Shown here: in pieces, positions 9,477-17,148 of the stretch
Layout: every line of letters begins with the position of its first letter
Numbering within the stretch: the first letter of the stretch is position 1
DNA from: a virus
Strand: one strand, 5' to 3'
DNA length: 22,043 nt
IMG/VR virus record: IMGVR_UViG_3300001472_000061
Location: 13,377 to 35,419 of that record
Position numbers and translations under genes: made by a program
The notes under the pieces: generated by a model
Told to the model about the DNA's origin: nothing
Databases searched by the model: none
Seen by the model: only the letters and a program-made list of their open reading frames with translations

Positions 9477-9821
9477 TTATAAGTACAGAGCAGATAGCTT
9501 TACGCTTGTCTGTGCTGAACATGTTATTGTTATATTACCAGTAGCATCATTAAAAGCATCAACTTCAAAAGGTCCTAAAAATCCTTCCTCACCAGCCGCT
9601 AAGCTAAGTACTGCATTTTCTTTTTTAAGTGTACCCAATAAAGGATCCACTACTGTTGTAACAACTGGAACTACTGTAGCTGTCATAGTTACACCTCCAC
9701 CATTTTCAACATGAAAAAATTGTATTGCTGTATTTGCAAGTGTATCACCACTTACACCTGGAGTAACCGTTACAGGTTTTAATCCAGCTTGAGTTATTTG
9801 TTGTGCTGTTAATACTGCCAT
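9477..9821 (-). CDS. Small beta-rich virion protein
   Basis: A 114-residue protein, beta-rich and without a signal peptide or membrane helix. It opens with MAVLTAQQITQAGLKPVTVT, has a long Val/Thr-rich middle (VTMTATVVPVVTTVV), an acidic loop AAGEEGFLGPFEVDAF and ends in SVKLSALYL. The size, the pattern LSLAAGEEGFLGPF and the place directly before the long fibre gene fit a head decoration or tail accessory protein, a type I remember from marine phages. A 10-base gap links it to the fibre gene. Which virion part it belongs to cannot be told from the sequence. Confidence 0.5.
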   Translation of the reverse strand: MAVLTAQQITQAGLKPVTVTPGVSGDTLANTAIQFFHVENGGGVTMTATVVPVVTTVVDPLLGTLKKENAVLSLAAGEEGFLGPFEVDAFNDATGNITITCSAQTSVKLSALYL

Positions 9822-9831
9822 AATATTTTAT

Positions 9832-10077
9832 TTATTTACCGTTTACATATCCACTTCTAAAAGCAGCTGACTGAACTGGTTCTGCAGCTCTAGTAGACTT
9901 TTGTGGTGGATTTAAATTTGTTTTCTTTGCTAGCTTAATTCTAGCTGCAACTTTTTTCTTATTCTCAGCATTCTGTAATGATTGTTGAATAGATGTAGGA
10001 TTATAATATCCATTAGTTGTTTCTCTGTTATACACCTCTCCTTGCATAGGAAAGGATGCTTTATTTGCTTTACCCAT
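9832..10077 (-). CDS. Small basic protein, virion-associated by context
   Basis: An 81-residue basic protein with a polar, Asn-rich N-terminus (YNRETTNGYYNPTSIQQSLQ) and a Lys/Arg-rich helix (ENKKKVAARIKLAKKTNLN). It has no cysteine, signal peptide or membrane segment. It ends in GK and is followed by an A-rich leader to the 114-residue virion-type gene. It belongs to a run of four or five small Lys-rich proteins in this operon that could bind packaged DNA or nucleic acid. The family is not recognised. Confidence 0.5.
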   Translation of the reverse strand: MGKANKASFPMQGEVYNRETTNGYYNPTSIQQSLQNAENKKKVAARIKLAKKTNLNPPQKSTRAAEPVQSAAFRSGYVNGK

Positions 10078-10082
10078 TTTTT

Positions 10083-10166
10083 TTATTTTTTAAGTAAGTG
10101 TGATCCATCACAAATTCCTTCAGAATTCTGCGTGCCACCACATGTACATTGATTTCTATTATTCAT
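10083..10166 (-). CDS. 27-residue CDGSH-motif peptide (possible 2Fe-2S ligand set)
   Basis: An ATG at 10166-10164, one base after the stop of the 65-residue gene, opens a 27-codon frame that ends five bases before the next ATG. The whole core reads CTCGGTQNSEGICDGSH: Cys7, Cys9, Cys19 and His23 match the C-x-C...C-D-G-S-H signature of CDGSH (mitoNEET-type) proteins, which bind a 2Fe-2S cluster by three Cys and one His. The spacer between the second and third Cys is nine residues instead of the usual eight. The family normally needs some 35-40 residues, so this would be a minimal form, perhaps a homodimer or a metal site on a larger partner. Fe-S binding is inferred from the motif alone. Confidence 0.65.
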   Translation of the reverse strand: MNNRNQCTCGGTQNSEGICDGSHLLKK

Positions 10167-10167
10167 T

Positions 10168-10365
10168 TTATTTTTTCATTTTACCTAATGTTAAAGCAAG
10201 CCTAGCACGCTGTGCAGTCTTACCACTTCCTTTTGCTTTCTCTCTCAACCAGCTTTTTTTAATTGTACCATCTGCCTTCATGGCTCCTGCTCTTTTTGCA
10301 GTTGCTTTTAAAGCACCAGGCTTTTTAATTGCCCCTTTGATCCAATTTTTTTTCTTAGCTGCCAT
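10168..10365 (-). CDS. Small Lys-rich phage protein of the IKKPGAL type
   Basis: A 65-residue, strongly basic protein (MAAKKKNWIKGAIKKPGALK at the start; RARLALTLGKMKK at the end). The pairing of W-I-x-x-A-I-K-K-P-G-A-L near the N-terminus with Q-R-A-R-L-A-x-T-L-x-K-M at the C-terminus is, from memory, a recurrent family in marine and crAss-like phages with no known role. It contains no cysteines or membrane helix. Nucleic-acid binding in the virion is plausible from charge. It lies between the 147-residue Lys-rich gene and the CDGSH peptide, with two or fewer spacer bases on one side and five on the other. Confidence 0.65.
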   Translation of the reverse strand: MAAKKKNWIKGAIKKPGALKATAKRAGAMKADGTIKKSWLREKAKGSGKTAQRARLALTLGKMKK

Positions 10366-10370
10366 CCTTA

Positions 10371-10814
10371 TTATTTTTTACGTCCACTTGATCTGTTACC
10401 AGAATAAGCTCTTTTACCTGCAGCTTTTTTAGCTCCTTTACTTTCATCTCTTCTAGACTTCATAGATTGTTTCTTCTTTCCGTTTCTCATTCCTAAAGAC
10501 TCATTTAATCTAGAATTGTAACCCTGCTTTTTCTTTTTCTTTTTAACAGCTCCACCTTTTTTCATCATTCCTTGTACAGGATCTAATACTGAACCACCAT
10601 TATCTTTAAACATTTCTAAACCACCAGCTGCAGCCATTGTATCCATAGCCATAGCTTGTGGAGTAAGATCTCTCATTCCATCAATTGATGATGTAAAGCC
10701 TCCCATTCCGGTTCCTCCCATATCATATCTTTTCATGTTATTTACTTTTTTCTTTTTTTTCTTTGCTGAAGAGCTTCCACCTATTTTGTAAGCATTTCTC
10801 ATATTGTTTGGCAT
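10371..10814 (-). CDS. Lys/Gly/Met-rich low-complexity virion-type protein
   Basis: A 147-residue protein with three basic blocks (SAKKKKKKVNN near residue 20, AVKKKKKKQGY near 93, and a Lys/Arg-rich end) around a central Gly/Met-rich region (YDMGGTGMGGF, AMAMDTMAAAGG). It is probably disordered. No family fold is visible. Such a make-up fits a nucleic-acid-binding or scaffold-like virion protein, but low complexity makes any homology call unsafe. The gene starts 12 bases after the holin gene's stop and ends five bases before the next ATG. The C-terminal stretch SGNRSSGRKK could be a protease-trimmed tail. Confidence 0.55.
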   Translation of the reverse strand: MPNNMRNAYKIGGSSSAKKKKKKVNNMKRYDMGGTGMGGFTSSIDGMRDLTPQAMAMDTMAAAGGLEMFKDNGGSVLDPVQGMMKKGGAVKKKKKKQGYNSRLNESLGMRNGKKKQSMKSRRDESKGAKKAAGKRAYSGNRSSGRKK

Positions 10815-10826
10815 AATTTCTAAATT

Positions 10827-11228
10827 TTATTTGTTATTGTTTTTTACTTTTTCTAATGAACGTCCTCCAAAGTATGCACCTATTACTGTAATTAAAACTA
10901 ATTGTAATAAATCCACCCAAGAAGCTTTGACATCAAATGAAATAAAACCTGCATCAACAAATACTAATAGTACTGTTGATACAACTAAAAATATTAATGT
11001 CATTGGTCTTACGTTCTTACTTAACCAACTATCTGAATTCATATCTGAACTCCATCTTGTTGAAATTTCTTTCTCCATATCTACTTCATGCTTGGAGATT
11101 AACTCTTTTATCTTTAACTCAGCAGCAAGCTTTTCATCAGCTGAAGTATGTAGCTCGTCTATAACTCCACCAATACCTTTAACTAATTCTTTAGCTCCTC
11201 CTGAAAATATTTTACTTAGTATACTCAT
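10827..11228 (-). CDS. Holin of the 3TM/GTA-holin type
   Basis: A 133-residue protein matching the 3TM_holin (gene-transfer-agent-type holin) pattern. It has an amphipathic start (MSILSKIFSGGAKELVKGIG), a charged helix (TSADEKLAAELKIKELI) and the hallmark SDMNSDSWLSKNVRPMTLIF that leads into a first membrane helix (about 75-98). After a short linker comes a second helix (WVDLLQLVLITVIGAYFGGR, about 103-125). The tail is basic and polar. Members form or regulate the inner-membrane lesion in late infection. It sits in the late operon between fibre 1 and the Lys-rich genes. I see no endolysin next to it in this window. Confidence 0.8.
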   Translation of the reverse strand: MSILSKIFSGGAKELVKGIGGVIDELHTSADEKLAAELKIKELISKHEVDMEKEISTRWSSDMNSDSWLSKNVRPMTLIFLVVSTVLLVFVDAGFISFDVKASWVDLLQLVLITVIGAYFGGRSLEKVKNNNK

Positions 11229-13629: not shown

Positions 13630-14607
13630 ATGAAAGACATCTTTAAACCCAGACTAAATATACTACCCTATCAATATCCACAATTATTAGAATACAAAGA
13701 TGCAATAAGACATTCATATTGGATAGATACAGAATTTAATTTCACAGAAGACATACAAGACTTTAAAATCACTATAACACCTAAAGAAAAAGATGTTATT
13801 AAAAAAACAATGTTGGCCATTGCTCAGATAGAAGTTAATGTAAAAACTTTTTGGGGAGACTTATATAAGCGTATGCCTATTACAGAAATAGGAGATGTAG
13901 GTTTTACTTTTGCAGAATCTGAAGTAAGACATAAAGATGCCTATGCTAGACTGTTGAGGATCTTAGGTTTAGAAAAAGAATTTGAAACTGTTGTTGAGGT
14001 ACCAGCTATTAAAGGTAGAATTAAATACTTAAAAAAATATTTAGATGGTACAAGAAGTAGTGATGATAAAATGTATACTAAGTCTGTCCTTCTATTCTCT
14101 TTATTTATAGAGCATGTTAGTTTATTTAGTCAGTTCTTAATCATGATGTCTTTTAACAAAGAGAAAAACCTTTTTAAAGGAATCTCTAACGTTGTTGAAG
14201 CCACCAGTAAAGAAGAAGAAATACATGGAAACTTTGGTGCAGAATTAATAAACATAATAAAAAAAGAAAACCCACATTGGTTTAACTCACAGTTCAGGCA
14301 GTTAATTTATTCTGCTTGTCACAAGGCTTATGAAGCAGAATGTAAAATATTAGACTGGATATTTGAAAAAGGTGAACTATCTTTTCTTCCAAAAGAAACA
14401 ATTGAAAACTTTATAAAGAATAGATTCAACAACTCACTACAAAAAATAGGAATGAAAACTATATTTGAAGTAGATGAAAACAAATTAAAACAAGTAGAAT
14501 GGTTTGATATAGAGATAACAGCTACTAAAGAAGGAGATTTCTTCTATAAAAAAAGTGTAGACTACAATAAAAAAAGTAAAAGTATAACTGAAGATGATCT
14601 CTTTTAA
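13630..14607 (+). CDS. nrdB: Ribonucleotide reductase class I, small (radical) subunit
   Basis: This 325-residue protein makes the radical that the large subunit needs to reduce ribonucleotides to deoxyribonucleotides. Dimetal ligands by alignment with E. coli NrdB are Glu68 (in AIAQIEV), Glu98 and His101 (E-V-R-H), Glu161 (FIEH), and Glu196 and His199 (E-E-I-H). Tyr105, four residues after His101, matches the radical Tyr122. The first ligand is Glu where E. coli has Asp84. Sequence blocks such as TRSSDDKMYTKSVLLFSLFI and SLFSQFLIMMSFNKEKNLFK are those of Flavobacteriia-type NrdB. No N-terminal ATP-cone is present. The end ITEDDLF fits the subunit-docking tail. It overlaps or abuts nrdA and faces against the flanking late genes. 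Confidence 0.95.
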   Translation: MKDIFKPRLNILPYQYPQLLEYKDAIRHSYWIDTEFNFTEDIQDFKITITPKEKDVIKKTMLAIAQIEVNVKTFWGDLYKRMPITEIGDVGFTFAESEVRHKDAYARLLRILGLEKEFETVVEVPAIKGRIKYLKKYLDGTRSSDDKMYTKSVLLFSLFIEHVSLFSQFLIMMSFNKEKNLFKGISNVVEATSKEEEIHGNFGAELINIIKKENPHWFNSQFRQLIYSACHKAYEAECKILDWIFEKGELSFLPKETIENFIKNRFNNSLQKIGMKTIFEVDENKLKQVEWFDIEITATKEGDFFYKKSVDYNKKSKSITEDDLF

Positions 14608-16436: not shown

Positions 16437-16856
16437 TTAGTAACTTGCTTCACGCCTAACTACTTCTATAGCTCTGACCATTTTGTTATAGTCTACAGGG
16501 CATAATAGATCAAGCTTAGCTCTTGCTGTAAATTTAATGTATGCATCACCCTTTAAATATAATAGTAGGGTTGGTGCCATTCTAATTCTAAGTTCTTTTT
16601 TTAATTTTGGTGATGTTGCAATATCACATCTATAATATGTGACTCCTTCAAGTTTGTTAATTTTTTCCCAGTCTTGAAACGCATTATCTTTATTAAACTC
16701 TGCCCAGAATTCTACTACAATTACATCATCTTCTTCATTTTCATCAAAAGCTGATCCTGCTGTAACTTTTTCTTCAAAGTTTTTATCTGTTATCCATTCC
16801 TGAGACAGTACAGTTGTTGTTGTTAAAAGCAATAATACTGTAAGGAGATACTTCAT
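16437..16856 (-). CDS. Exported thioredoxin-fold protein lacking the CxxC site
   Basis: A 139-residue protein with a Sec signal peptide (MKYLLTVLLLLTTTTVLS, cleavage likely before Gln19) and a thioredoxin-like domain. The strand VIVVEFWAEF aligns with the usual FWAEWCGPC, but the active site WCGPC is replaced by FNKDN at residues 54-58, so both catalytic Cys are Asn. The cis-proline is kept (RMAPT, Pro95), as are the strand after it and YYRCDIA, the usual partner strand. It cannot be a thiol oxidoreductase of the normal kind. It should act outside the inner membrane as a binding or chaperone-like fold. Its start lies one base after the stop of the coiled-coil gene. Confidence 0.75.
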   Translation of the reverse strand: MKYLLTVLLLLTTTTVLSQEWITDKNFEEKVTAGSAFDENEEDDVIVVEFWAEFNKDNAFQDWEKINKLEGVTYYRCDIATSPKLKKELRIRMAPTLLLYLKGDAYIKFTARAKLDLLCPVDYNKMVRAIEVVRREASY

Positions 16857-16857
16857 T

Positions 16858-17148
16858 TTAATTCTTTTTAGTTAACTCGTAGATTCTCTCTTCCATTTTG
16901 TCAAACTTTTCTAATAAAGCTTCTACATCTTCTTGAGTATCCATAATGGTTTGTCTAATAAGCTCATCTTTTAAATCATACTCTACTCTTTCTATTGGAG
17001 GTTTTGGATTCTCCATTGCCGTAGCTATGTCTGCTTTTAATGTAAACCACATTGTAGAAAGTGAGATTGTAAAGCCCACAACCATACCAATTGTTTTTAA
17101 ATCTAAAGTTATTTTTGTTTTTTCTCCTATTTCTGGTACTCCTGCCAT
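16858..17148 (-). CDS. Single-TM protein with coiled-coil tail
   Basis: A 96-residue protein. A short cytoplasmic start (MAGVPEIGEKTKITLDLK) leads to one membrane helix at about 19-37 (TIGMVVGFTISLSTMWFTLK), a Pro-rich linker (ENPKPPIERVEY) and a charged coiled-coil (TQEDVEALLEKFDKMEERIY). The architecture recalls i-spanin or holin-accessory proteins and also small virion/membrane linkers. There is no lipobox partner next to it, so a spanin call is not supported. It lies between the outer-membrane barrel and the thioredoxin-fold gene. Its leader GTAAAAAAATAAAACAATG is nearly identical to that of the 540-residue fibre. Confidence 0.6.
   Translation of the reverse strand: MAGVPEIGEKTKITLDLKTIGMVVGFTISLSTMWFTLKADIATAMENPKPPIERVEYDLKDELIRQTIMDTQEDVEALLEKFDKMEERIYELTKKN

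Follow-up and report, generated by a model that had tools for sequence, protein, structure and literature searches.

A CDGSH-like microprotein gene in a phage late region and its relatives in marine phages and bacteria

The microprotein gene and its surroundings

The 22,043 nucleotides analysed here, hereafter the window, are part of a 35,419-base IMG/VR record and carry on the minus strand, at 10166..10083, an open reading frame of 27 codons with an ATG start and a TAA stop, which encodes a CDGSH-type microprotein with the sequence MNNRNQCTCGGTQNSEGICDGSHLLKK. Its ligand loop, C7-T-C9-G-G-T-Q-N-S-E-G-I-C19-D-G-S-H23 (10098..10148, minus strand), was assigned from the sequence and from a zf-CDGSH match below the cut-off. 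A single base (10167) separates the ATG from the stop of the upstream gene at 10168, and five bases (10078-10082) lie between the microprotein stop and the start of the downstream gene at 10077. The original prediction, which had described a 27-codon frame at 10083-10166 fitting its neighbours to within one and five bases, was thus confirmed, with the strand assigned as minus.

The upstream gene (10168..10365, minus) encodes a Lys-rich protein of 65 aa, matches phrog_20603, a family of unknown function (E=5.6e-9), and served as a search anchor. It is preceded by a 147-aa Lys/Gly-rich gene (10371..10814, minus), for which neither Pfam nor PHROG gave a match, and by a holin gene (10827..11228, minus; phrog_3427 holin, E=7.6e-31, with PF11351 below its cut-off), which lies ~660 nt upstream of the microprotein. 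On the downstream side, an 81-aa gene identified as an ORF (MGKANKASFPM..., 9832..10077, minus) is followed by a small tail protein gene (9477..9821, minus; phrog_16194 tail protein, E=1.9e-8). The long ORFs between 12855 and 2110, which we take as genes, share the minus strand of the microprotein; the named families in this run are the holin and the small tail protein, and long repetitive, fibre-like ORFs are also found in it. The microprotein had been proposed to sit between virion-type genes, which holds for the tail protein, but the recognisable neighbours include a holin too.

Conservation of the microprotein gene

Loci were collected with two of these genes as anchors, keeping the best 80 of 275 relatives of the 65-aa gene and the best 80 of 262 relatives of the holin, with some contigs common to both sets. 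The motif was observed as a short free frame in 9 of the 80 loci of the former set and in 6 of the 80 loci of the latter, while five and eight further loci, respectively, displayed only loose, unrelated-looking matches. At seven loci (L004-L010) the frame occupied the same gene junction and was followed by a gene similar to the window 81-aa gene, and at L014 and L017 the site was empty, the 65-aa gene running directly into a gene like the 81-aa one. The original prediction had regarded related loci devoid of the frame as evidence against it, and such loci were in part found; since nine of the 80 anchored loci carry the frame and two sites are empty, the microprotein gene is accessory.

Among eight distinct sequences, including that of the window (alignment A1), C7, C9, G10, T12, G17, C19, D20, G21, and H23 were all kept, and every orthologue found retained the four ligands. 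A loose pattern turned up no decayed copy on the anchor's strand in either anchored set. The pooled pN/pS was 0.285 (22 codons, 36 pairs of nine sequences), a value obtained from sequences that had all been picked by the motif.

Spacing controls were carried out on viral contigs with four patterns. The 51-nt in-frame pattern C-x-C-G-x8-C-D-G-x-H, here called the plus-one spacing, gave at least 120 matches, and the canonical spacing, one codon shorter, also gave at least 120, compared with 11 for a frame-breaking pattern of 50 nt and eight for a 54-nt pattern one residue longer, one of which (L538) looks like a true relative. The canonical and plus-one spacings are real, and the other two spacings tried lie near chance level. 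Moreover, residues left free by the pattern were nearly fixed among the 118 stop-free viral plus-one motifs listed, with S/T at position 7 in 114 and G two residues before Cys3 in 111; S/T16, a position partly constrained by the pattern, was found in 116. The plus-one motifs listed comprised 104 distinct DNA versions, in which both Cys and both His codons were used, and a few of the 118 were clearly chance frames.

That the frame is a chance or non-coding one is exceedingly improbable. Its 27 codons are short and only nine of the best 80 of 275 anchored loci carry it, which would suit such an origin, but the orthologues at the same junction, the pN/pS ratio, the spacing counts, and the near-fixed free residues speak against it, and a free chance ORF was ruled out by the last two of these. 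The microprotein is demonstrated here to be a conserved gene: phage and bacterial copies retain the four ligands together with the G, S/T, G, D, and G around them. The proposed phage-borne minimal CDGSH-type site proved genuine.

Relation to the CDGSH domain

In Pfam, zf-CDGSH was the sole family matched by the window microprotein at E<=10 (E=0.076, 13.7 bits); the match missed the gathering score of 29.5 and covered the final third of the profile (positions 32-47 of 48). PHROG and NCBIfam gave no match for the microprotein, and membership in a family of any of the three libraries was rejected, none being above the cut-off. A PDB search with the family profile returned three weak matches, the best two being 3TBM (E=0.11) and 3TBN (E=0.30). 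AlphaFold modelled a 30-aa microprotein with a pLDDT of 73.9 and no strand of three or more residues, and Foldseek found no match to this model in the PDB.

According to the comparative sections of PMC3174974, all CISDs conserve C2, C4, (S/T)7, P11, C13, D14, G15, (S/T/A)16, and H17, together with an N-strand, a lid-proline motif, and a beta-sandwich, and the sandwich, which pairs two cluster sites, is common to all CDGSH structures compared there. Relative to CISDs (PF09360, zf-CDGSH) of types 3 and 4, such as 3TBO and 3TBM, the microprotein keeps C2, C4, (S/T)7, C13, D14, G15, (S/T/A)16, and H17, with D14 and G15 present in all eight sequences of A1. However, it has one extra residue between Cys2 and Cys3, nine instead of the canonical eight, as the original prediction had noted, it carries Gly in place of P11, and it is devoid of the N-strand, the P motif, and the beta-sandwich. 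The order of three Cys and one His, C-x-C...C-x3-H, was present in the window peptide and its orthologues and is fixed by the pattern in the wider set. Of 53 distinct phage microproteins no longer than 36 aa, all 53 had Gly at the place of P11, and 39 had Lys or Gln before Cys1, where CDGSH domains have a hydrophobic residue. Phage microproteins have a median of six residues before Cys1 and three after His, which leaves no room for strands, and microproteins of 22-30 aa compare with 53 residues in full-length PcCISD, as given in the same sections of PMC3174974. With Gly in place of the loop proline and, in most cases, Lys or Gln ahead of Cys1, the dimer core of canonical CDGSH proteins cannot be built in its known form.

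An 80-aa protein on a contig titled Gammaproteobacteria (L308) aligned with the dual-motif CDGSH protein 3TBN (E=4.3e-11), its first motif having the plus-one and its second the canonical spacing; therefore, the one-residue insertion is compatible with a full CISD. Because P11 is lost, strands have no room, and L308 tolerates the insertion, we call the microprotein CDGSH-derived or CDGSH-like, and not a CISD member. The SEC-C tail of SecA, a zinc-holding add-on for partner binding, likewise consists of a loop of ~20 residues with a C-x-C start placed at a protein terminus, but it ends in C-H or C-C, whereas the microprotein loop ends in C-D-G-S-H, and SEC-C was not matched by the window microprotein in Pfam at E<=10.

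Free copies and terminal tags on viral contigs

A large CDGSH-loop microprotein family, absent from Pfam, PHROG, and NCBIfam, is common to marine phages and bacteria. Its signature, C-x-C-G-x-[ST]-x4-G-x-C-D-G-[ST]-H in a free frame of ~22-36 aa, is present in the window copy, and a set of 87 phage and bacterial sequences including this copy (A5) was thinned by hand from 146 distinct free sequences. Among the 120 viral plus-one matches listed there were 116 ATG frames, 76 of which stood alone with 45 aa or less. Free microproteins with the canonical spacing also occur in viral contigs, as 33 of the 117 frames listed for this spacing were of 45 aa or less. Free plus-one phage copies of 60 aa or less numbered 83 among the matches listed and fell into 21 clusters, and their neighbours varied widely from cluster to cluster. 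Two of the PHROG matches among these neighbours were to groEL, and in L249 and L252 the microprotein precedes by four bases a GroEL-like gene of ~530 codons.

The loop was also found at the ends of larger proteins, which fits the earlier idea that it could cap one. With the plus-one spacing, it forms an N-terminal tag on a viral protein of 108-110 aa and a C-terminal tag on XkdF-type head maturation proteases, a WYL_2 protein, and others; a CDGSH-type tail ends the XkdF-type proteases of L201, L220, L230, and L284, of which L284 and L230 were family-scanned. With the canonical spacing, it precedes 2OG-Fe(II) oxygenases of viral contigs as an N-terminal tag (L419:5136-5975, L420:8635-9363, and L517:2756-3631), where all three proteins scanned matched the oxygenase family. 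The protein of L425 is a further candidate of this kind. Viral proteins of 71-72 aa combine a KOW-like N-terminus with a CDGSH tail; in L501 (1134-1346) the KOW match was below the cut-off, and the proteins of L494, L507, L508, and L526 look alike by eye. In addition, a 96-aa phage protein (L272:3130-3417) has the loop CGCGRSPTGKCIGWH at its start and a CDGSH-type loop at its end, and the two loops may be relatives.

Annotated phages were searched with tblastn (E<=10) against 50,697 records. Three plus-one microprotein queries gave no match in these records except one weak, unrelated-looking one (E=3), the 108-aa N-terminal fusion gave none, and a canonical-spacing query of 43 aa matched 16 residues in an unannotated phage record (E=6). 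In this analysis, the free form was thus encountered in uncultivated viral contigs and in bacteria. The fusion partners did have annotated relatives: matches of the XkdF-type protease ended before the tail (25 of 79 matches listed), all five annotated-phage matches of the oxygenase started after the loop, and seven Aeromonas records matched the WYL_2 protein up to the edge of the loop. The loop was absent from the stretches of four partner records, from Aeromonas, Synechococcus, Rhizobium, and Nonlabens (918, 828, 849, and 1088 bases), the last of which stops before the end of the gene, with the C-terminus outside it.

Bacterial copies and their neighbours

A stricter plus-one pattern gave at least 132 matches in at least 120 loci on genome contigs, and 100 of the 128 bacterial ATG frames among the matches listed had 45 aa or less. 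The titles (80 of the loci listed) were mostly Flavobacteriia and unclassified Bacteroidetes, including Polaribacter, with Paenibacillus, Brevibacillus, and others also among those listed, and three copies (L317, L351, and L327) lie on megabase contigs of named bacteria. The phage site, which had been put forward as new, is absent from the libraries searched, but neither this phage nor phages in general have it to themselves, since bacteria encode the microprotein as well. The bacterial distribution is patchy: the A5 profile found the microprotein in 16 of 199 genomes of a Polaribacter family sample (centre included; 13 below E=1e-10), in 17 of 149 genomes of a Paenibacillus order sample (centre included), and in 2 of 296 genomes of a phylum sample, one being the centre and the other a weak match. 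Nine distinct tandem duplicates of 54-63 aa belonged to Opitutae or Verrucomicrobiota where a title was given. These tandems share with the type 6 tandem CISD (3TBN; human CISD3) the presence of two motifs in one chain, but they consist of two similar loops without strands, and AlphaFold gave a poor model of this form (pLDDT 52).

An upstream scan covered 114 unfused bacterial loci, 70 of which had a same-strand gene of at least 80 aa within 200 nt. YceI, a lipid-quinone binder, was the same-strand upstream neighbour in 56 of these 70. In a separate count, YceI was found at 61 of the 114 loci but in 10 of 46 dereplicated host clusters, so that the link comes mainly from a single group, in our reading Flavobacteriia. 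No YceI was found within 200 nt at the six loci titled Paenibacillus or Paenibacillaceae, and none of the eight window proteins scanned with Pfam matched it. By eye, a signal peptide is present in YceI and absent from the microprotein. On the downstream side, 43 of 48 candidates were scanned (L300, L358, L367, L370, and L411 were left out), and the neighbours included 17 FMN_red, 4 Flavodoxin_2, 10 anthranilate synthase I, and 7 DUF3857 proteins. In L294 and L354, the next gene resembles pirin, as judged by reading the sequence with no family search.

Fusions were also observed in this set. In L320 the microprotein and then YceI share one reading frame, and family scans identified a loop fused to ribosomal protein S16 (L392) and to a PSP1 protein (L402). 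The latter is presumably RicT-like, and PSP1/RicT-like proteins with a C-terminal CDGSH-type tail were found in both L311 and L402. RicT of Bacillus has been reported to be Fe-S linked (PMC6751060).

Judged by their listings, none of the open-licence PMC papers searched is about a CDGSH microprotein in phages, and the bare-loop form is undescribed in the survey sections on CDGSH types of PMC3174974 and PMC5859297. The former names types 4 and 7 as the CDGSH types preferred in Bacteroidetes, and the latter, in the same sections, places single-motif CDGSH proteins in few bacterial phyla; a word search of the main text of PMC5859297 for virus, phage, or Bacteroidetes found none.

Possible function and alternative explanations

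The explanation that we favour, and hold to be rather likely, is that of a CDGSH-like minimal metal-site microprotein, with a much more tentative relay role in the host, carried by the phage as an accessory late gene. The frame would encode a microprotein of 22-30 residues with little beyond the CDGSH ligand loop and its one-residue insertion, and this loop would be used alone or as a terminal tag, the same loop being fused to the ends of other proteins. Metal binding through Cys7, Cys9, Cys19, and His23 is predicted with high confidence and is the safest claim that can be made about the microprotein from its sequence. The minimal site is probably an iron-sulfur one, and the chances are about even that the metal would be a labile [2Fe-2S] cluster that the chain binds together with a partner or with another copy of itself, which would be needed because one chain is devoid of the strands that build the known dimer. 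The candidate metals are [2Fe-2S], on account of homology, and zinc, on account of size. The chemistry would be of a known kind, and what appears new is that, in phage and bacterial members alike, only the bare loop is left.

It is possible, without being probable, that the CCCH loop is instead a zinc knuckle, holding one Zn2+ as a structural add-on for partner binding with no redox role. A chain of 22-30 residues would more readily accommodate a knuckle with one metal than an exposed [2Fe-2S] cluster, the loop is a terminal tag on such unrelated proteins as the XkdF-type protease, ribosomal protein S16, PSP1, and WYL_2 proteins, and M15 endolysins, frequent neighbours of the phage copies, are zinc enzymes. 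However, S/T7, D, G, and S/T16 are kept although a bare zinc knuckle would not need them, zf-CDGSH is the only Pfam family matched, and iron or redox partners recur, as 2OG-Fe(II) oxygenases fused to the canonical form and FMN reductases beside the bacterial copies. The microprotein as a virion component, that is, a packaged peptide whose metal would either strengthen part of the tail or head or serve to bring iron into the host, is decidedly improbable: the minus-strand run does include a tail protein and fibre-like ORFs, and some head maturation proteases carry related loops as fusions, but the same microprotein occurs on bacterial chromosomes and its phage neighbours differ widely between clusters.

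The neighbourhood of lysis genes raises a further alternative, in which the microprotein would be an accessory of the lysis module that tunes the holin or the endolysin, e.g., by metal supply to an M15 endolysin or by redox sensing at lysis. An M15 endolysin or a GTA-type holin lies within 500 nt of 53 of the 83 free viral copies listed, and the window itself has a holin upstream. With one representative per cluster, this proximity was found in 7 of 21 cases against 2.7 expected (simulated P 0.0036), though the two families had been chosen after the neighbours had been inspected, and within 1500 nt the excess was reduced to 8 of 21 against 4.9 expected (P 0.04); of random positions on these loci, 34% likewise fall within 1500 nt of these lysis genes. 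Among the 120 direct same-strand neighbours within 150 nt, PHROG named five holins, four endolysins, and two groups of three peptidases that may overlap (25 of 34 families listed), so that a holin, endolysin, or peptidase was named for at most 15 of the 120. Moreover, no match to M15_3 or Amidase_2 was found in the window record, and the families beside the bacterial copies are not lysis families. The lysis-gene link of the phage microprotein is therefore moderate, and a lysis role, which dereplication demoted from main explanation to rival, is unlikely.

With regard to the relay role of the favoured explanation, the analogy tentatively suggests that the bacterial microprotein could pass electrons or clusters from a flavin reductase to a lipid-quinone partner, and that the phage copy, as an accessory late gene, could adjust redox or iron handling late in infection. 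Such a relay would parallel that of mitoNEET in vitro with flavin reductase, FMN, and ubiquinone; as reported in PMC9490426, mitoNEET together with flavin reductase and FMN transfers electrons from NADH, with either oxygen or ubiquinone as the acceptor. YceI and FMN reductase in the flavobacterial neighbourhood offer the same cast, but YceI, by eye, appears exported while the microprotein does not, and the Paenibacillus loci are devoid of the YceI link. In our reading, the phage microprotein is an accessory late-region gene of a host type, whichever way it was transferred. A more specific version, in which tiny [2Fe-2S] CDGSH peptides of 22-30 residues, paired with a partner, would act in bacteria between FMN reductase and the isoprenoid quinone bound by YceI, and would have been spread by phages, which would use the same loop both as a free late protein and as a metal tag on their own enzymes, is doubtful as a whole. 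If true, these peptides would be among the smallest stand-alone iron-sulfur proteins. A widespread family in which the ligand loop is retained and everything else is lost would test how little protein a CDGSH site needs; it would also provide a definite chemistry for which microproteins of phages and bacteria could be assayed, and would account for the recurring terminal tag on phage enzymes.

Other genes in the window

The small subunit of a ribonucleotide reductase is encoded at 13630-14607 on the plus strand, opposite to the late genes (phrog_86, E=2.8e-67). On the minus strand, a thioredoxin-like protein with a signal peptide (16437-16856) lies beside a short membrane/coiled-coil protein (16858-17148), both recognised by eye. 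In L224, L231, and L242, genes like this pair lie no more than two genes away from the microprotein, as does a gene like the first alone in L198.
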